NCBI GenBank assembly: GCA_947570135.1 | Contig: CANOTP010000009.1 | Coordinates: 1 to 64,000 of the forward strand | Source: an uncultured Candidatus Melainabacteria bacterium | Lineage (GTDB): Bacteria; Cyanobacteriota; Vampirovibrionia; Gastranaerophilales; Gastranaerophilaceae | Length of the DNA: 64,000 nucleotides | Reading direction: 5' to 3' | Notes under the pieces: model-generated | Told to the model about the DNA's origin: nothing | Seen by the model: the letters and a program-made list of their open reading frames with translations, nothing else | Database searches by the model: none | Part shown: piece after piece, positions 16,220 to 60,302 of the stretch | How positions within the stretch are numbered: position 1 is the stretch's first letter | Layout: every line of letters starts with the position of its first letter | Position numbers and translations under genes: made by a program

Positions 16220-16924
16220 ATGAAGAAATGTTTAGGTTTTTCATTGGCTGAGGTTTTGATAACACTTGGTATAATAGGTGTTGTTGCTGCCCTTACAATT
16301 CCTGGGTTACTTACAAATATACAGGATTCCCATCTTAAGAAAAAGTGGAAAAAAGTATTTGCCGATGTTGCAAATGCGTACAGATTAGGCATGGATGATG
16401 AAGAATTATATATTCCTAATCTTGAGGGAGAAGCTTATAATTCTGTAGATGAATTGTATTACCGAATATTTTCGAATTTAAGTCCGTTAAGTATGTGTGT
16501 AACCCATATTACAACTCCTGCTGGAAAAATGAATGGTAGTAATTGCTATAATTATGGTTTAGGTAAGCTTTATAATAAAGGTTATAATGCTATACTTTGT
16601 TCTTCATTGAGCGGAGATGTTAATGGTTGTAGTTATAATAATATGAACGGTAATGCATTATTAAAAAATGGTGCAATATTATTTGCCCATGGGCAGTTAT
16701 GGGGGTATCCTAATATTTTGGTTGATGTTAATGGCGAAGCTAAACCTAATGTTGTTGGTCGTGATATGTTTATTATTTTAATTCGAGACGGAAAGGTTAT
16801 TCCCGGCGGAGCTCCGGGGTATGAATTGAAAGGGTGCGACAAAAAAATAGCATCCAGAGCAAATCATGATGCGGAAAATCTTTCAGGCAGCGGTTGCGGG
16901 TATAAATATTTGATAGAAAAATAA
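16220..16924 (+). CDS. Type IV prepilin-like protein
   Basis: The 234-aa protein has a short class III leader, MKKCLG, then the cleavage context G^FSLAEVLITLG and a hydrophobic helix, as in pseudopilins and type IV pilins. Glu5 of the mature form is present. The C-terminal region has the block VDVNGEAKPNVVGRD shared by the family members in this window, then a P-G-G segment and paired Cys. It should be processed by a prepilin peptidase such as that encoded at 39554. This copy has an intact start, a consensus promoter and AAAGG before the ATG. Confidence 0.88.
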   Translation: MKKCLGFSLAEVLITLGIIGVVAALTIPGLLTNIQDSHLKKKWKKVFADVANAYRLGMDDEELYIPNLEGEAYNSVDELYYRIFSNLSPLSMCVTHITTPAGKMNGSNCYNYGLGKLYNKGYNAILCSSLSGDVNGCSYNNMNGNALLKNGAILFAHGQLWGYPNILVDVNGEAKPNVVGRDMFIILIRDGKVIPGGAPGYELKGCDKKIASRANHDAENLSGSGCGYKYLIEK

Positions 16925-20252: not shown

Positions 20253-21258
20253 AGAAAATTCAGGAATTTTGATATACGCTCAATTAACACGGGATGAATA
20301 TATTCATACTGTTTTTTACGAGCTTGTAGATAAAGCGCACGATCTTTCAAAAAAACTTGACGGGTGTGAAGTAAACGCTGTAATTTTTGCCCGCAAAGGG
20401 CTTGTTGATTCGTTTAAAGAATCCTTTCAAAATAAGGGTTTAAATAAAGTTTTTTATTTTGAAGATGATGAATTAAAAGACTATTCAACGGATTACTATT
20501 CAAAACTTCTTGTCGATTTGGTCGGAGTTGTAAAACCTGAAATTTTGCTCATCGGCGCGACTAATCAGGGCAGAGACTTGGCACCTCGGGTTGCGTCTAT
20601 GCTTTGTACGGGTTTAACGGCTGATTGTATAGATTTGGATATAAACGAAAAAGGTCAGCTTGCGGCTACCCGTCCGACTTTTGGCGGACAGCTTATGGCA
20701 ACGATTTTATGTAAAAATTATCCGCAAATGGCAACCGTCAGGCCGAATGTCTTTAAAATTAACCGGGAAGTTAATTATTTTGATACTGAAATGGTGTCAT
20801 GCCCCGTTAATATTTCATATATGCCAAAACGGGTTAAAGTTTTAGATTTTGAAAAGACTTTGGATTCTGTGATAAACGAACTTGATACAGCAGAAATTAT
20901 TGTTGCAGGTGGCAAGGGGTTAAAAAATCAAAAAGGTTTTGAATTGTTGCAAAAATTTGCTGACCGTATTGGAGGTACAGTTGCCGCGACCCGTGGTGCT
21001 GTGGAAATGGGACTTGCTCCTGCTTCAATCCAGGTCGGGCAGACTGGTAAAACCGTTCACCCTAAAGTTTATATTGCTTGTGCCTTGTCAGGTGCTATTC
21101 AGCATACTGTCGGGATGAGCGGTTCTGATTATATTATTGCGATAAATAATGATGAAAACGCGGAAATTTTTGATATCGCGGATTGCGGAATTGTCGGAGA
21201 TGTGTTTGAAATATTACCAAAATATATGGAGTATAAAAAAGATGAAAATGTACACTAA
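20242..21258 (+). CDS. etfA: Electron transfer flavoprotein subunit alpha
   Basis: The 338-aa protein has the C-terminal FAD domain with GGKGLKNQKGFELL, TRGAVEMGLAP, QVGQTGKTVHPKVYIA and GIVGDVFEILP, and an N-terminal ETF domain with GATNQGRDLAPRVA. It is translationally coupled to etfB by overlap. Its last codons (N-V-H-stop) lie inside a 74-base segment that also occurs at the head of the prepilin gene at 44286, so the C-terminus runs into sequence belonging to the decayed prepilin locus. Confidence 0.95.
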   Translation: MTNKENSGILIYAQLTRDEYIHTVFYELVDKAHDLSKKLDGCEVNAVIFARKGLVDSFKESFQNKGLNKVFYFEDDELKDYSTDYYSKLLVDLVGVVKPEILLIGATNQGRDLAPRVASMLCTGLTADCIDLDINEKGQLAATRPTFGGQLMATILCKNYPQMATVRPNVFKINREVNYFDTEMVSCPVNISYMPKRVKVLDFEKTLDSVINELDTAEIIVAGGKGLKNQKGFELLQKFADRIGGTVAATRGAVEMGLAPASIQVGQTGKTVHPKVYIACALSGAIQHTVGMSGSDYIIAINNDENAEIFDIADCGIVGDVFEILPKYMEYKKDENVH

Positions 21259-21315
21259 GACTAGGTTTTCGCGGGGGATAAGTTTTATCGCTCCTTAGGT
21301 TTTACACTTGCGGAA
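21242..21315 (+). repeat. 74-nt prepilin-head repeat, copy A
   Basis: This segment aligns without gaps to 44286-44359 (64 of 74 identical). Both begin with ATG, encode an 18-codon peptide ending in A-P-stop, and carry the pilin GFTLAE codons in the -1 frame. The left end overlaps the last 17 bases of etfA. Confidence 0.85.
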
Positions 21316-22000
21316 TGTGCTACACACGTAACTTTGTTACTAAGAGCCGTGAAATTTGGATTCACCCTTGCTGAGGTATTAATTACCCTTGGAATTATCG
21401 GGATTGTTGCTGCTATGACTATTCCGACATTAATAGCCAAAGTTCAACATATTCAGTATCGAGTTTCTTATAAAAAAGCTTATAGTGTTATTAATCAAGC
21501 ACTAAAAACCATGGTAGATGATGGGGAAGTCTCAGGCATTCCAAGCGAGTGTAGTTCTGTTGTTGCTGAAAATTTTAAAAAACTTGCAACAAATTATATA
21601 AAAACCTCTCAAACCGGTTTTGATAACAATGCAGATAAATGCTGGTTTTGTGAAACAGGTGAATCAGGTTATATTGTAGGTACTGGTGCGCCAGAGTGGC
21701 TTGGTTGTATGAAATAAGTTATGCTTTTGTAGATATGAACGGTACTGCTTGGTATTTATATCATAATAAGGAATTCTCTATTCTGATTGATGTAAACGGA
21801 AACCGTAGACCAAATCAGCTTGTACGTGACAGGTTTGTTTTTCGGTTTGCAAATTCAATGGCGCAAGATAAGTTTTATGGTATGGAGAAAATGCCGTTAT
21901 ACCTTTGTGTGATGAGATAGCCAAAAGTCGTTGGTGCCCGCAGGGCAATTGTTTATATAAACGTGGATTCAGGGTAATAAATAAAGTAGTTTTAATCTAA
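21242..22000 (+). pseudogene. Decayed type IV prepilin-like gene
   Basis: The locus reads as a prepilin only across several frames. The first ATG (21242) is out of frame with the pilin helix. The pilin frame contains two G-F-T-L-A-E heads, at 21298-21315 and about 21358-21375; the second, with a TTG (21334) or GTG (about 21350) start, gives FTLAEVLITLGIIGIVAAMT and runs to a stop at 21717. The next part (YAFVDMNGTAWY, LIDVNGNRRPNQL) lies in a second frame (about 21696-21920). The Cys-containing end (LCDEIAKSRWCPQGNC) lies in a third frame, stopping at 21998-22000. Two internal frameshifts plus the head problem indicate a pseudogene; assembly error is less likely but possible. Confidence 0.75.
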
Positions 22001-31952: not shown

Positions 31953-31981
31953 TTTACAAATGTTTACGAAGTTGGTATAAT
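31953..31981 (+). promoter_or_regulatory. Near-consensus sigma-70 promoter of the 32009 prepilin
   Basis: TTTACA (31953-31958) and a perfect TATAAT (31976-31981) are spaced by exactly 17 bases. A start near 31988 gives a 21-base leader containing AAAAAAGGAG (31991-32000), 8 bases before the ATG at 32009. Confidence 0.75.
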
Positions 31982-32008
31982 AAAGAAGATAAAAAAGGAG
32001 ATAAATTT

Positions 32009-32740
32009 ATGAAAAGCCAAGCTACAGTTTAAATTGCGAGAGGTAGCTCTTATAGCTTAAAGCGGAGCGCGTTTACATTGGCAGAAGTTCTTATCACTCT
32101 CGGAATTATCGGGGTTGTTGCGGCGATGACTATACCAAATCTTATTAATAATTACAAAGCCACTCGGCTAAAATCTCAATTTACAAAAGTTCAATCTGAA
32201 ATAGCTCAAGCTGTCAGGATGATGAAAAATGATGATATTAGTTTGGATCCTGCAAGTTATGGTAAAAATGAGTTGTTTGTTAATACTTTTTCTAAATATA
32301 TTAAAGTCTTGCACGTATGCGGAACAAATGTTACTGATACAAAGTATAAAGATTTATGTTACATAAAAGATTCTATAACTTATCTGAAAAGTAGGTCGAA
32401 TACTCCCGTTAATTATACTTTTTTGGATGACGGACAATTTGTATTAATGGATGGAACATTATTAATTTTTAATCAAGATGATACTGATAAACCGTTATAC
32501 CTTATTGCAGATATAAACGGAATAAAAACAAAACCTAACAGACTCGGATATGATGTTTTTGTGTTTCAAATGCTGAACGAAGAATTTATTCCGTTGGGAG
32601 CTCGAGGTACGACTGCTCCTTATGATCAGAAATGTAATTTAGAAGCAGCTGCAATCATTGGTTTTACTTGTGCATATAATGCTGTCACAGATTCTGAATA
32701 TTTCAAGAAACTTGTTCGAACAAGTTTTATTGTTAAGTGA
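32009..32740 (+). CDS. Prepilin-like gene with an in-frame TAA in its leader
   Basis: The promoter and the AAGGAG site lead to the ATG at 32009, which reads seven codons (M-K-S-Q-A-T-V) and then TAA at 32030-32032. The same frame then continues IARGSSYSLKRSA and FTLAEVLITLGIIG through an intact pilin body to 32740, with the family block ADINGIKTKPNRLGYD and FIPLGARG near the end and paired Cys. The next usable start in frame is the TTG at 32078 (inside F-T-L), which would delete the leader and cleavage site. The body is undamaged, so the stop is either recent, read through, or bypassed by an unusual start. Confidence 0.7.
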
Positions 32741-44285: not shown

Positions 44286-44359
44286 ATGAAAAAGTACACT
44301 ATGACTAGGATTTCGGGGGGGGTAACTTTTCTCGCTCCTTAGGATTTACACTGGCGGAG
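44286..44359 (+). repeat. 74-nt prepilin-head repeat, copy B, with G8 tract
   Basis: This copy aligns without gaps to 21242-21315 (64 of 74 identical). It contains G8 at 44315-44322. AGGAGG at 44274-44279 precedes the ATG by 6 bases, and an extended -10 (TG at 44251-44252, TAATAT 44254-44259) lies upstream. Confidence 0.85.
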
Positions 44360-45061
44360 GTTCTAATTACCCTCGGAATTATCGGAGTGGTTGCCGCGAT
44401 GACGATACCGACATTAATTGCAAACACAAGAAGTCAGCAGTATCGTTCAGCTTTTAAAAAAACTGTTTCTGTTCTCGGGCAAGCTGCCAGAATGTCACAG
44501 GCTCAATATGGGTTTGATTATGCGGGGATTAATCAGCTTTGCGGGGCAAACGCTGCAACAGAGCATCCTGATAATGTTATGACGGTTTGTTCTTTATTGA
44601 ATGGGGCTTTGACGGGTTCGACTTATTTTGAACGGGCTTCTGATATTCCGATGAAAGGCAGTTCAAAATATACTATTACAAGAGGGCCGTTTATGTTGGC
44701 TGATGGAGTAAGAGTAATTAATAATTACCGTGCGTATGTATTAAAAGACGGGACTATTGTTGGGATTTATAAGGATATGGGATTAAATACTTGTACATTG
44801 TCTGTTGGTAAAACCTTAAATGATCTTATCGGAGGTAATGATGAGATGAGATTTTGTGTCGGGTTTATCGACGTAAACGGGGTATCTTTACCGAATAAAG
44901 AAGTAAGCTGTTCATCAGGTTCTGATTCTTTAAAACAAAACAATTGCATCGTGAAAAACGACGCCAAACATATGACTGATATTTATCCGATAAGATTTCA
45001 TGACGGGATTGTTGAACCTGCTTCGGCTGCTGCAAGATATGTTTTAAAAACCGCTAAATAA
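44286..45061 (+). CDS. Prepilin-like gene with start out of frame across a G8 tract
   Basis: The ATG at 44286 has a strong ribosome binding site but reads an 18-codon peptide to TAG at 44340-44342. The pilin frame (-1 relative to it) contains SRSLG^FTLAEVLITLGIIG and an intact body to 45061 with FIDVNGVSLPNKE and several Cys. That frame has a TAG at 44306-44308 and no ATG, GTG or TTG before a GTG at 44387, which would remove the leader. One extra G in the G8 tract, or a -1 slip there, joins the two into a normal prepilin with leader MKKYTMTRISGGGNFSRSLG. Off-phase or recoded expression is therefore likely; 44387-45061 is the minimal ORF. Confidence 0.75.
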
Positions 45062-59054: not shown

Positions 59055-60302
59055 ATGAATAAAAATAAAGGGTTTACTTTAACGGAAGTTTTGTTGGCTG
59101 TAGCGATAGTCGGAATAATTGCGGCATTGGTACTTCCGATGGTTGTAAAAAATTATCAGGAAAAAACGCTTGATGCGGCACTAAATCGAGAAAAACAAAC
59201 CTTGGATGCGTCTGTAAAAGCTTTATTAATTAATGAAAACACTGATGCTTATGAAAAAACAATGCTTTATACTTATGAAGCCAAACCAACAAGTTATGAA
59301 AATACTTCAGGAAAGTTTATAAAAAAATATCTAAAAGTTTCTAAGTACTGTGGAGATTCAAATGGAGATTGTTTTGCATCTAAGTATTATAAATATGAAA
59401 ACGGTGATAAAGTAGTTCATACTCCGACTTATAAAGGTGCTTGTGCAAGCTTGAAAAACGGTTCAAGTATTTGTATTCAGCCGCAAACATCTTCTGAAAT
59501 CGTAAAAATATTACTTGATGTTAACGGTAAAAAAGGTCCTAATGTTTTAGGAAGAGATTTGCGGGAATACGAGATTTCATTACCTAAAAAAGCCGGTTTA
59601 GACAGATCAAGCAGTGATATAGATTGGGATTACAAGCTTGTAAAAATAGAAGAACCTACAACTCCGGAAACTCCCGATCCCCCGGAACCTTCGGAAACTT
59701 GTTCTAAAACAGCAGGAACGGATGCTGCATGCTGTATGAAATCAAGTGAGTATGCAGTATGGCATGAAAGAAGTTGTTGCGGAAATATTAAGGAATATTT
59801 TGACCTTCATCAAACAACATGTTGTTCTAAATGGGGATCTAATCCTTGGTGTCCGTCTTCACCTCCAAAACAAAAAGCATCAATACAACTTACGTTAGAA
59901 TATGACAGACAAGGTTCTTATAATTCTTCAAATCCTTTTCATGGTGTAATTATTAAAACAAGTACCGTAAATGCCCCAAGCTATATTACTATTCAATGTA
60001 ATGCAACTTGTTCCTTGAGTTCATCCGCATCTTCATCCAGGTGGATGGTTTCAACGGTAGACGGTTATAAAAATTTTCCTATGGTAGCACAACAAGTTGG
60101 TCCTTCTTGCAGGATTTCAGCATATGCCGGGCAGCAACCATGTGCGGCTCATAATTGTATCGGTTATGAAACAAGAGATTATACCCAAATATCAGGCTAT
60201 TGTCAAGTTTATGCTTCAGCAGGTATTCCATCTTGTCGGGTAACCATACCTAACGGGACTTCTAATAAATCTGACAAATGTCGTATCGATTTTGATATAT
60301 AA
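59055..60302 (+). CDS. Prepilin-like protein with Cys-rich C-terminal extension
   Basis: The 415-aa protein has an intact leader MNKNKG^FTLTEVLLAVAIVG, a pilin-like domain ending in the family block LDVNGKKGPNVLGRDL, then a Pro/Glu/Thr linker (about 205-220, PTTPETPDPPEPSET) and about 190 extra residues with some 20 Cys in pairs (ACCMKS, SCCGN, TCCSKW). The extension looks like a disulfide-rich extracellular domain, possibly a tip or adhesin part. The helix sequence diverges from the FTLAEVLITLG type of the others. Terminator at 60301-60329. Confidence 0.85.
   Translation: MNKNKGFTLTEVLLAVAIVGIIAALVLPMVVKNYQEKTLDAALNREKQTLDASVKALLINENTDAYEKTMLYTYEAKPTSYENTSGKFIKKYLKVSKYCGDSNGDCFASKYYKYENGDKVVHTPTYKGACASLKNGSSICIQPQTSSEIVKILLDVNGKKGPNVLGRDLREYEISLPKKAGLDRSSSDIDWDYKLVKIEEPTTPETPDPPEPSETCSKTAGTDAACCMKSSEYAVWHERSCCGNIKEYFDLHQTTCCSKWGSNPWCPSSPPKQKASIQLTLEYDRQGSYNSSNPFHGVIIKTSTVNAPSYITIQCNATCSLSSSASSSRWMVSTVDGYKNFPMVAQQVGPSCRISAYAGQQPCAAHNCIGYETRDYTQISGYCQVYASAGIPSCRVTIPNGTSNKSDKCRIDFDI

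Follow-up and report, generated by a model that had tools for sequence, protein, structure and literature searches.

Blocked leaders in front of intact pilin bodies in this uncultured Gastranaerophilales bacterium point to a large contingency repertoire of prepilins with poly-G tracts in their leaders. From the sequence comparisons described below, the repertoire is probably phase-variable by slipped-strand mispairing at poly-G, with the locus at position 32009 as a locked-off relic.

Prepilin loci in the window

The window, i.e., the whole stretch of 64,000 nt that was analysed, has five prepilin loci. An earlier note on this DNA described locus 32009 as the third among the five with a leader-level block, with two of the three blocked loci having intact bodies, and this is borne out. 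The loci at 21242, 32009 and 44286 are blocked, whereas those at 16220 and 59055 have ordinary leaders. The bodies of 32009 (222 codons) and 44286 (238 codons) are intact and that of 21242 is broken (118 codons). The recurrence of leader blocks before intact pilin bodies is a real pattern and calls for an explanation. The emphasis of the note was on the TAA codon of 32009 (a TAA/CAA polymorphism, or readthrough), and this emphasis is not supported. What recurs among the leaders is a poly-G tract: the block at 44286 is a frameshift at G8, and the blocks at 21242 and 32009 are decay of the same leader.

Locus 44286 (44286 to 45061, plus strand) is the standard copy. It consists of a poly-G leader, with the G8 tract at 44315 to 44322 (plus strand), and an intact pilin of 238 codons in the -1 frame relative to the ATG at 44286. 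The body scores above the cut-off with PF07963 and TIGR02532. The leader is one base out of frame with the pilin, and an in-frame prepilin leader is not present. For comparison, the ordinary prepilins at 16220 to 16924 and 59055 to 60302 (both plus strand) have short in-frame leaders.

The locus at 21242 (21229 to 21717, plus strand) is a second relic, in which the leader contains CGCGGGGG, a segment FTLAEC... is inserted and the body is broken. Its leader matches the shared-leader profile with an nhmmer E value of 1.4e-9. At 21290 to 21375 a small element makes a duplicate of the prepilin motif within the leader (FTLAEGATHVTLLPT...FGFTLAEVL), and it is also present at loci L014, L060, L034 and L063; it resembles a repeat with the prepilin motif as its insertion site.

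A poly-G leader shared across the genome

The genome (1.9 Mb) has 93 matches to N_methyl (PF07963), most of them at loci where the leader is short and ordinary. A longer leader is common to at least 27 tract-bearing loci and 7 relics, and has the form AGGAG-ATG-about 30 nt-C-G8-TAACTTTT-(about 14 to more than 200 nt)-FTLAEVLITLG. Across the genome the core GGGGGGGTAACT is found 28 times and the reversed pattern not once. At 44286 and the tract-bearing loci, which number at least 27, a homopolymer between the start codon and the mature protein sets the frame. G8 copies read NCG GGG GGG GTA ACT TTT in the start codon frame, with a stop soon after, and the pilin frame lies one base back (GGT AAC TTT ..., ending in SLG or RSA immediately before FTLAEV). 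Three copies have G9 (L104, L148 and L149) and enter the leader in frame; of these only L149 is a complete locus, and it continues in frame into the pilin. Tract length is otherwise very uniform in this genome and is mostly G8. Undercalling of the homopolymer, whereby G9 would be read as G8, is unlikely, since several contig ends share 55-base overlaps, which is the pattern of a short-read de Bruijn assembly, and copies with G7, G8, G9 and G11 coexist.

Contigs C1, C2, C3 and C15 at their ends, and C5 at its start, break at poly-G leaders with 55-base overlaps. Thus tract-bearing genes may be undercounted. All 34 poly-G and relic leaders are on the plus strand of their contigs, compared with 21 on the plus and 44 on the minus strand for ordinary-leader prepilins (Fisher 2e-12). 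GC skew is positive on the plus strand in every sampled contig.

The region between the tract and the prepilin motif contains palindromic repeats of about 100 to 250 bases at L036, L044, L016, L001, L091 and L095. These repeats (translated ...HSEFISES... and RFRVKHGMT...) are open in the pilin frame and sometimes bring a new in-frame ATG.

None of the seven tract-less relics of the genome is simply open. In L001, L042 and L072 the -1 frame is kept and the tract is interrupted, L073 has ATA for ATG, 32009 has the TAA, and the bodies of L062 and 21242 are broken. An inserted repeat in L001 contains a downstream in-frame ATG, and alternative starts may thus still allow the expression of some relics.

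Frame states and selection on the pilin bodies

Seventy poly-G prepilin leaders were compared, nearly all from this genus and many of them recent paralogs that are not independent. Sixty-six are out of frame (46 at -1 and 20 at +1) and 4 are in frame. Between the tract and the cleavage site, 69 of the 70 have an open pilin frame, and both other frames are closed in 64. In 24 leaders at least 60 bases, often palindromic repeats, separate the tract from the motif, and 23 of these are open. For the 25 most similar pairs of bodies, of which nearly all are out of frame, dN/dS is 0.08 to 0.35, and the bodies of out-of-frame genes thus show purifying selection. Intact genes make up 26 of 27 tract-bearing loci, as compared with 52 of 65 with ordinary leaders (p 0.058). 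As judged by open frame, purifying selection and intactness, three tests say that the poly-G leader family is alive, with the test of intactness being weak.

Two attributes of phase-variable genes are found. Homologs differ in both tract length and state, with on and off forms: L149 (G9, on) is 85% identical to L095 (G8, off), and L230 (G10, on) is 83% identical to L231 (G9, off). In addition, the off copies retain bodies under purifying selection and nearly all tract-bearing genes are intact, as given above. Genome G013 has a mixture of G10 to G13, in which G10 is on, G11 is at +1 and G12 is at -1, and genome G001 has G11 in 31 of 36 parsed leaders. In a sample of 30 genomes with one locus each (G8 to G13), 3 are on, 18 at +1 and 9 at -1; here starts were assigned by script from Shine-Dalgarno matches, and single calls may be wrong. 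These mixed phases, in the 70 leaders, in G013 and in the 30 genomes, are as slipped-strand mispairing predicts. However, under neutral slippage more in-frame states would be expected than were found (3 of 30, p 0.003).

A proposed switch, and possible slippage in expression

In the proposed switch, a poly-G tract lies between the start codon and the prepilin-peptidase cleavage site in dozens of prepilin genes. Replication slippage would alter the tract length, such that the pilin is on when in frame and off when out of frame. Prepilin peptidase removes the prepilin leader, and the variable glycine run would therefore not touch the mature pilin; the switch would be located in the cleaved leader, and the mature pilin would be independent of tract length. 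Slippage within a population, expression and surface display are steps that we infer from these comparisons. Given the intact-looking switch copies before dozens of pilin genes, and similar ones in 13 genera, these bacteria are probably able to vary the pilins on display.

The out-of-frame tract could instead be the working state, with the pilin expressed by slippage of the ribosome or of RNA polymerase (-1 frameshifting at G_GGG_GGG, or a transcriptional equivalent). This is possible but rather unlikely. The approximately 24 G8 copies in the genome are all at -1, with G_GGG_GGG in the canonical register and intact bodies, and out-of-frame states are in excess across genomes. Programmed -1 frameshifting looked a strong candidate when this genome was considered by itself, but is weakened by the mixed phases elsewhere. 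A programmed frameshift is expected to have a conserved direction, and a stimulatory structure is usual, although not obligatory. The slippery heptamer fits in register here, but the direction varies: it is -1 in this genome, +1 in G001, and mixed in G013 and in the order. Signs of a conserved structure downstream are weak and not convincing (five weak pairs, a folding energy of -3.8 kcal/mol and covariation of -0.1), and in-frame copies occur among homologs. Transcriptional slippage, on the other hand, requires no fixed direction. A tentative form of this alternative is that slippage leaks a little of dozens of pilins in each cell, and that replication slippage adds rare full-on variants; if so, each cell would have a mixed and changing pilin coat.

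The out-of-frame excess poses the question of whether it reflects default-off selection or slippage-driven expression. Considering this excess together with the uniform G11 of G001, more weight is given to default-off selection, although expression by slippage would explain both as well.

Locus 32009 as a decayed copy of the leader

Upstream of the 32009 leader is a sigma-70-type promoter, TTTACA-N17-TATAAT (31953 to 31981, plus strand), with the -35 element TTTACA at 31953 to 31958, a 17 nt spacer, and the -10 element TATAAT at 31976 to 31981, preceded by TG. It has 11 of 12 consensus matches and is a consensus match only; promoter-like sites around 32009 are not above the number in shuffled sequences (6 vs. 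5.6). The Shine-Dalgarno sequence AAGGAG (31995 to 32000) is followed, after 8 nt, by the ATG at 32009. These elements had been termed ideal. All are present, including AAGGAG and ATG, but the term is slightly strong, as the -35 element has 5 of 6 consensus positions.

The reading frame from this ATG, MKSQATV (32009 to 32032, plus strand), is ended by TAA at codon 8 (32030 to 32032). As had been described, the same frame then continues into leader residues and a full body; it reads IARGSSYSLKRSA immediately followed by FTLAEVLITLG, and the body of 222 codons (32072 to 32740, plus strand) ends with the stop at 32738 to 32740. The body matches N_methyl PF07963 (E value 7e-5) and is above the cut-off for TIGR02532; like that of 44286, it has the type IV prepilin pattern of a (G/A)-F-T-L-A-E cleavage motif and a hydrophobic helix after it. 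Between the TAA and the FTLAEV motif there is no in-frame ATG, GTG or TTG, and the body is without a usable standard start. An ATT directly 3′ of the TAA is in frame and is a weak start. Thus 32009 does not have the short basic leader, translated in frame, that is typical of a prepilin.

The segment from the Shine-Dalgarno sequence to the cleavage site (31995 to 32071, plus strand) is a relic of the shared poly-G leader, as identified by nhmmer and by alignment. A profile trained on 21 G8 and G9 leaders, with 32009 left out, matches at 31995 to 32058 with an E value of 3.3e-6, and the likeness is therefore more than chance. In the leader alignment GAGAGG (32038 to 32043, plus strand) is in place of the G8 of other copies, and 32009 thus has no phase-variable tract. 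As this segment is two bases shorter than G8, the ATG and the pilin are in one frame. The Arg codon that precedes the tract in other copies is TAA in 32009, a lesion found in no other leader of the aligned set.

Ordinary decay, i.e., damage to an old poly-G switch copy, is the most likely origin of the TAA at 32030, which is probably not a recoding signal. The tract would have been lost and the TAA gained at codon 8, such that the locus would now be fixed off, as a recent pseudogene or a presumably silent body. A nonsense lesion is present and the body is intact. No close ortholog of the body was found in the genus (best 44 to 49%) or in the genome_contigs collection (39%), and the closest homologs, at or below about 49%, are too distant for dN/dS. 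Two relatives of the body were found in named genomes, one of them in a Gastranaerophilales MAG, and the repertoire of prepilins is likewise in keeping with this order.

It is improbable that 32009 is a plain pseudogene unlinked to switching and that poly-G leaders are generally dead repeats. The nonsense codon, the missing in-frame standard start, and the relics with broken bodies (L062 and 21242) are what would be expected. However the leader of 32009 shares its ancestry with the poly-G leader, and for the family as a whole both the purifying selection on bodies and the proportion of intact genes (26 of 27 vs. 52 of 65, p 0.058) are contrary to dead repeats. For 32009 alone, a plain pseudogene differs from a relic of phase variation only in history. 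Readthrough of the TAA, or translation that begins at the adjoining ATT, is very unlikely in spite of the intact body, the good promoter and the ribosome binding site: the stop codon is shared by no other aligned leader, no recoding signal was identified at it, no in-frame start other than the weak ATT follows it, and the lesions of other relics differ (ATA for ATG in L073 and the interrupted tract of L072), which fits decay.

Poly-G leaders in the order

Tracts of at least 8 G shortly before a prepilin motif are found in 67 of 286 genomes of the order and in 13 of 50 genera, with up to 73 tract leaders in one genome; the reversed pattern was found in none of them. In other genomes of the genus, L168 and L173 have poly-G followed by TAACCCTTAAAGCC in the apparent signal peptides of non-prepilin secreted proteins, and the switch may therefore extend to further kinds of surface protein.

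In the open-licence literature, no report was found of such phase variation in the non-photosynthetic gut cyanobacteria (Gastranaerophilales, Melainabacteria or Vampirovibrionia), nor of a single poly-G leader common to dozens of prepilins in one genome.

Comparison with known systems

Phase variation by slipped-strand mispairing is a familiar mechanism, chiefly from pathogens. In Neisseria, variation of the type IV pilin involves pilE and silent pilS copies and proceeds by gene conversion of the body, whereas here the leader is the variable part. The poly-G genes of Campylobacter are mixed surface-structure genes, and are not known to have one common leader before a pilin family. A similarity is the presence of many poly-G contingency genes in a small genome, the Campylobacter phasome (PMC6321876).

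The opa genes of Neisseria have CTCTT repeats in the leader-peptide region (PMC3960869), and a gonococcus has about 11 opa genes (PMC3745409). The two systems share a multi-copy surface-protein family in which each copy is, or here would be, switched by repeat slippage inside a cleaved leader. They differ in that opa has pentamer repeats, encodes outer-membrane proteins and has had its switching measured; here there are poly-G tracts and pilins.

In Bifidobacterium breve, sortase-dependent pilus clusters have G10 or G11 tracts; the reference genome is out of frame, and an in-frame minority detected by deep sequencing rises in the mouse gut (PMC9187656). This is likewise a gut commensal with poly-G near the start of a pilus gene. 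However B. breve has one or two clusters per genome, its pili are sortase pili, the tract is outside a prepilin leader, and there is no paralog family dozens strong.

Locus 32009 on its own is most likely ordinary decay. The Gastranaerophilales are an order of non-photosynthetic gut cyanobacteria and are little-studied commensals. If the switching is real, these commensals would possess a large repertoire of phase-variable pilins. Many of the pilin genes would then appear disrupted in assemblies and could be overlooked or wrongly annotated.
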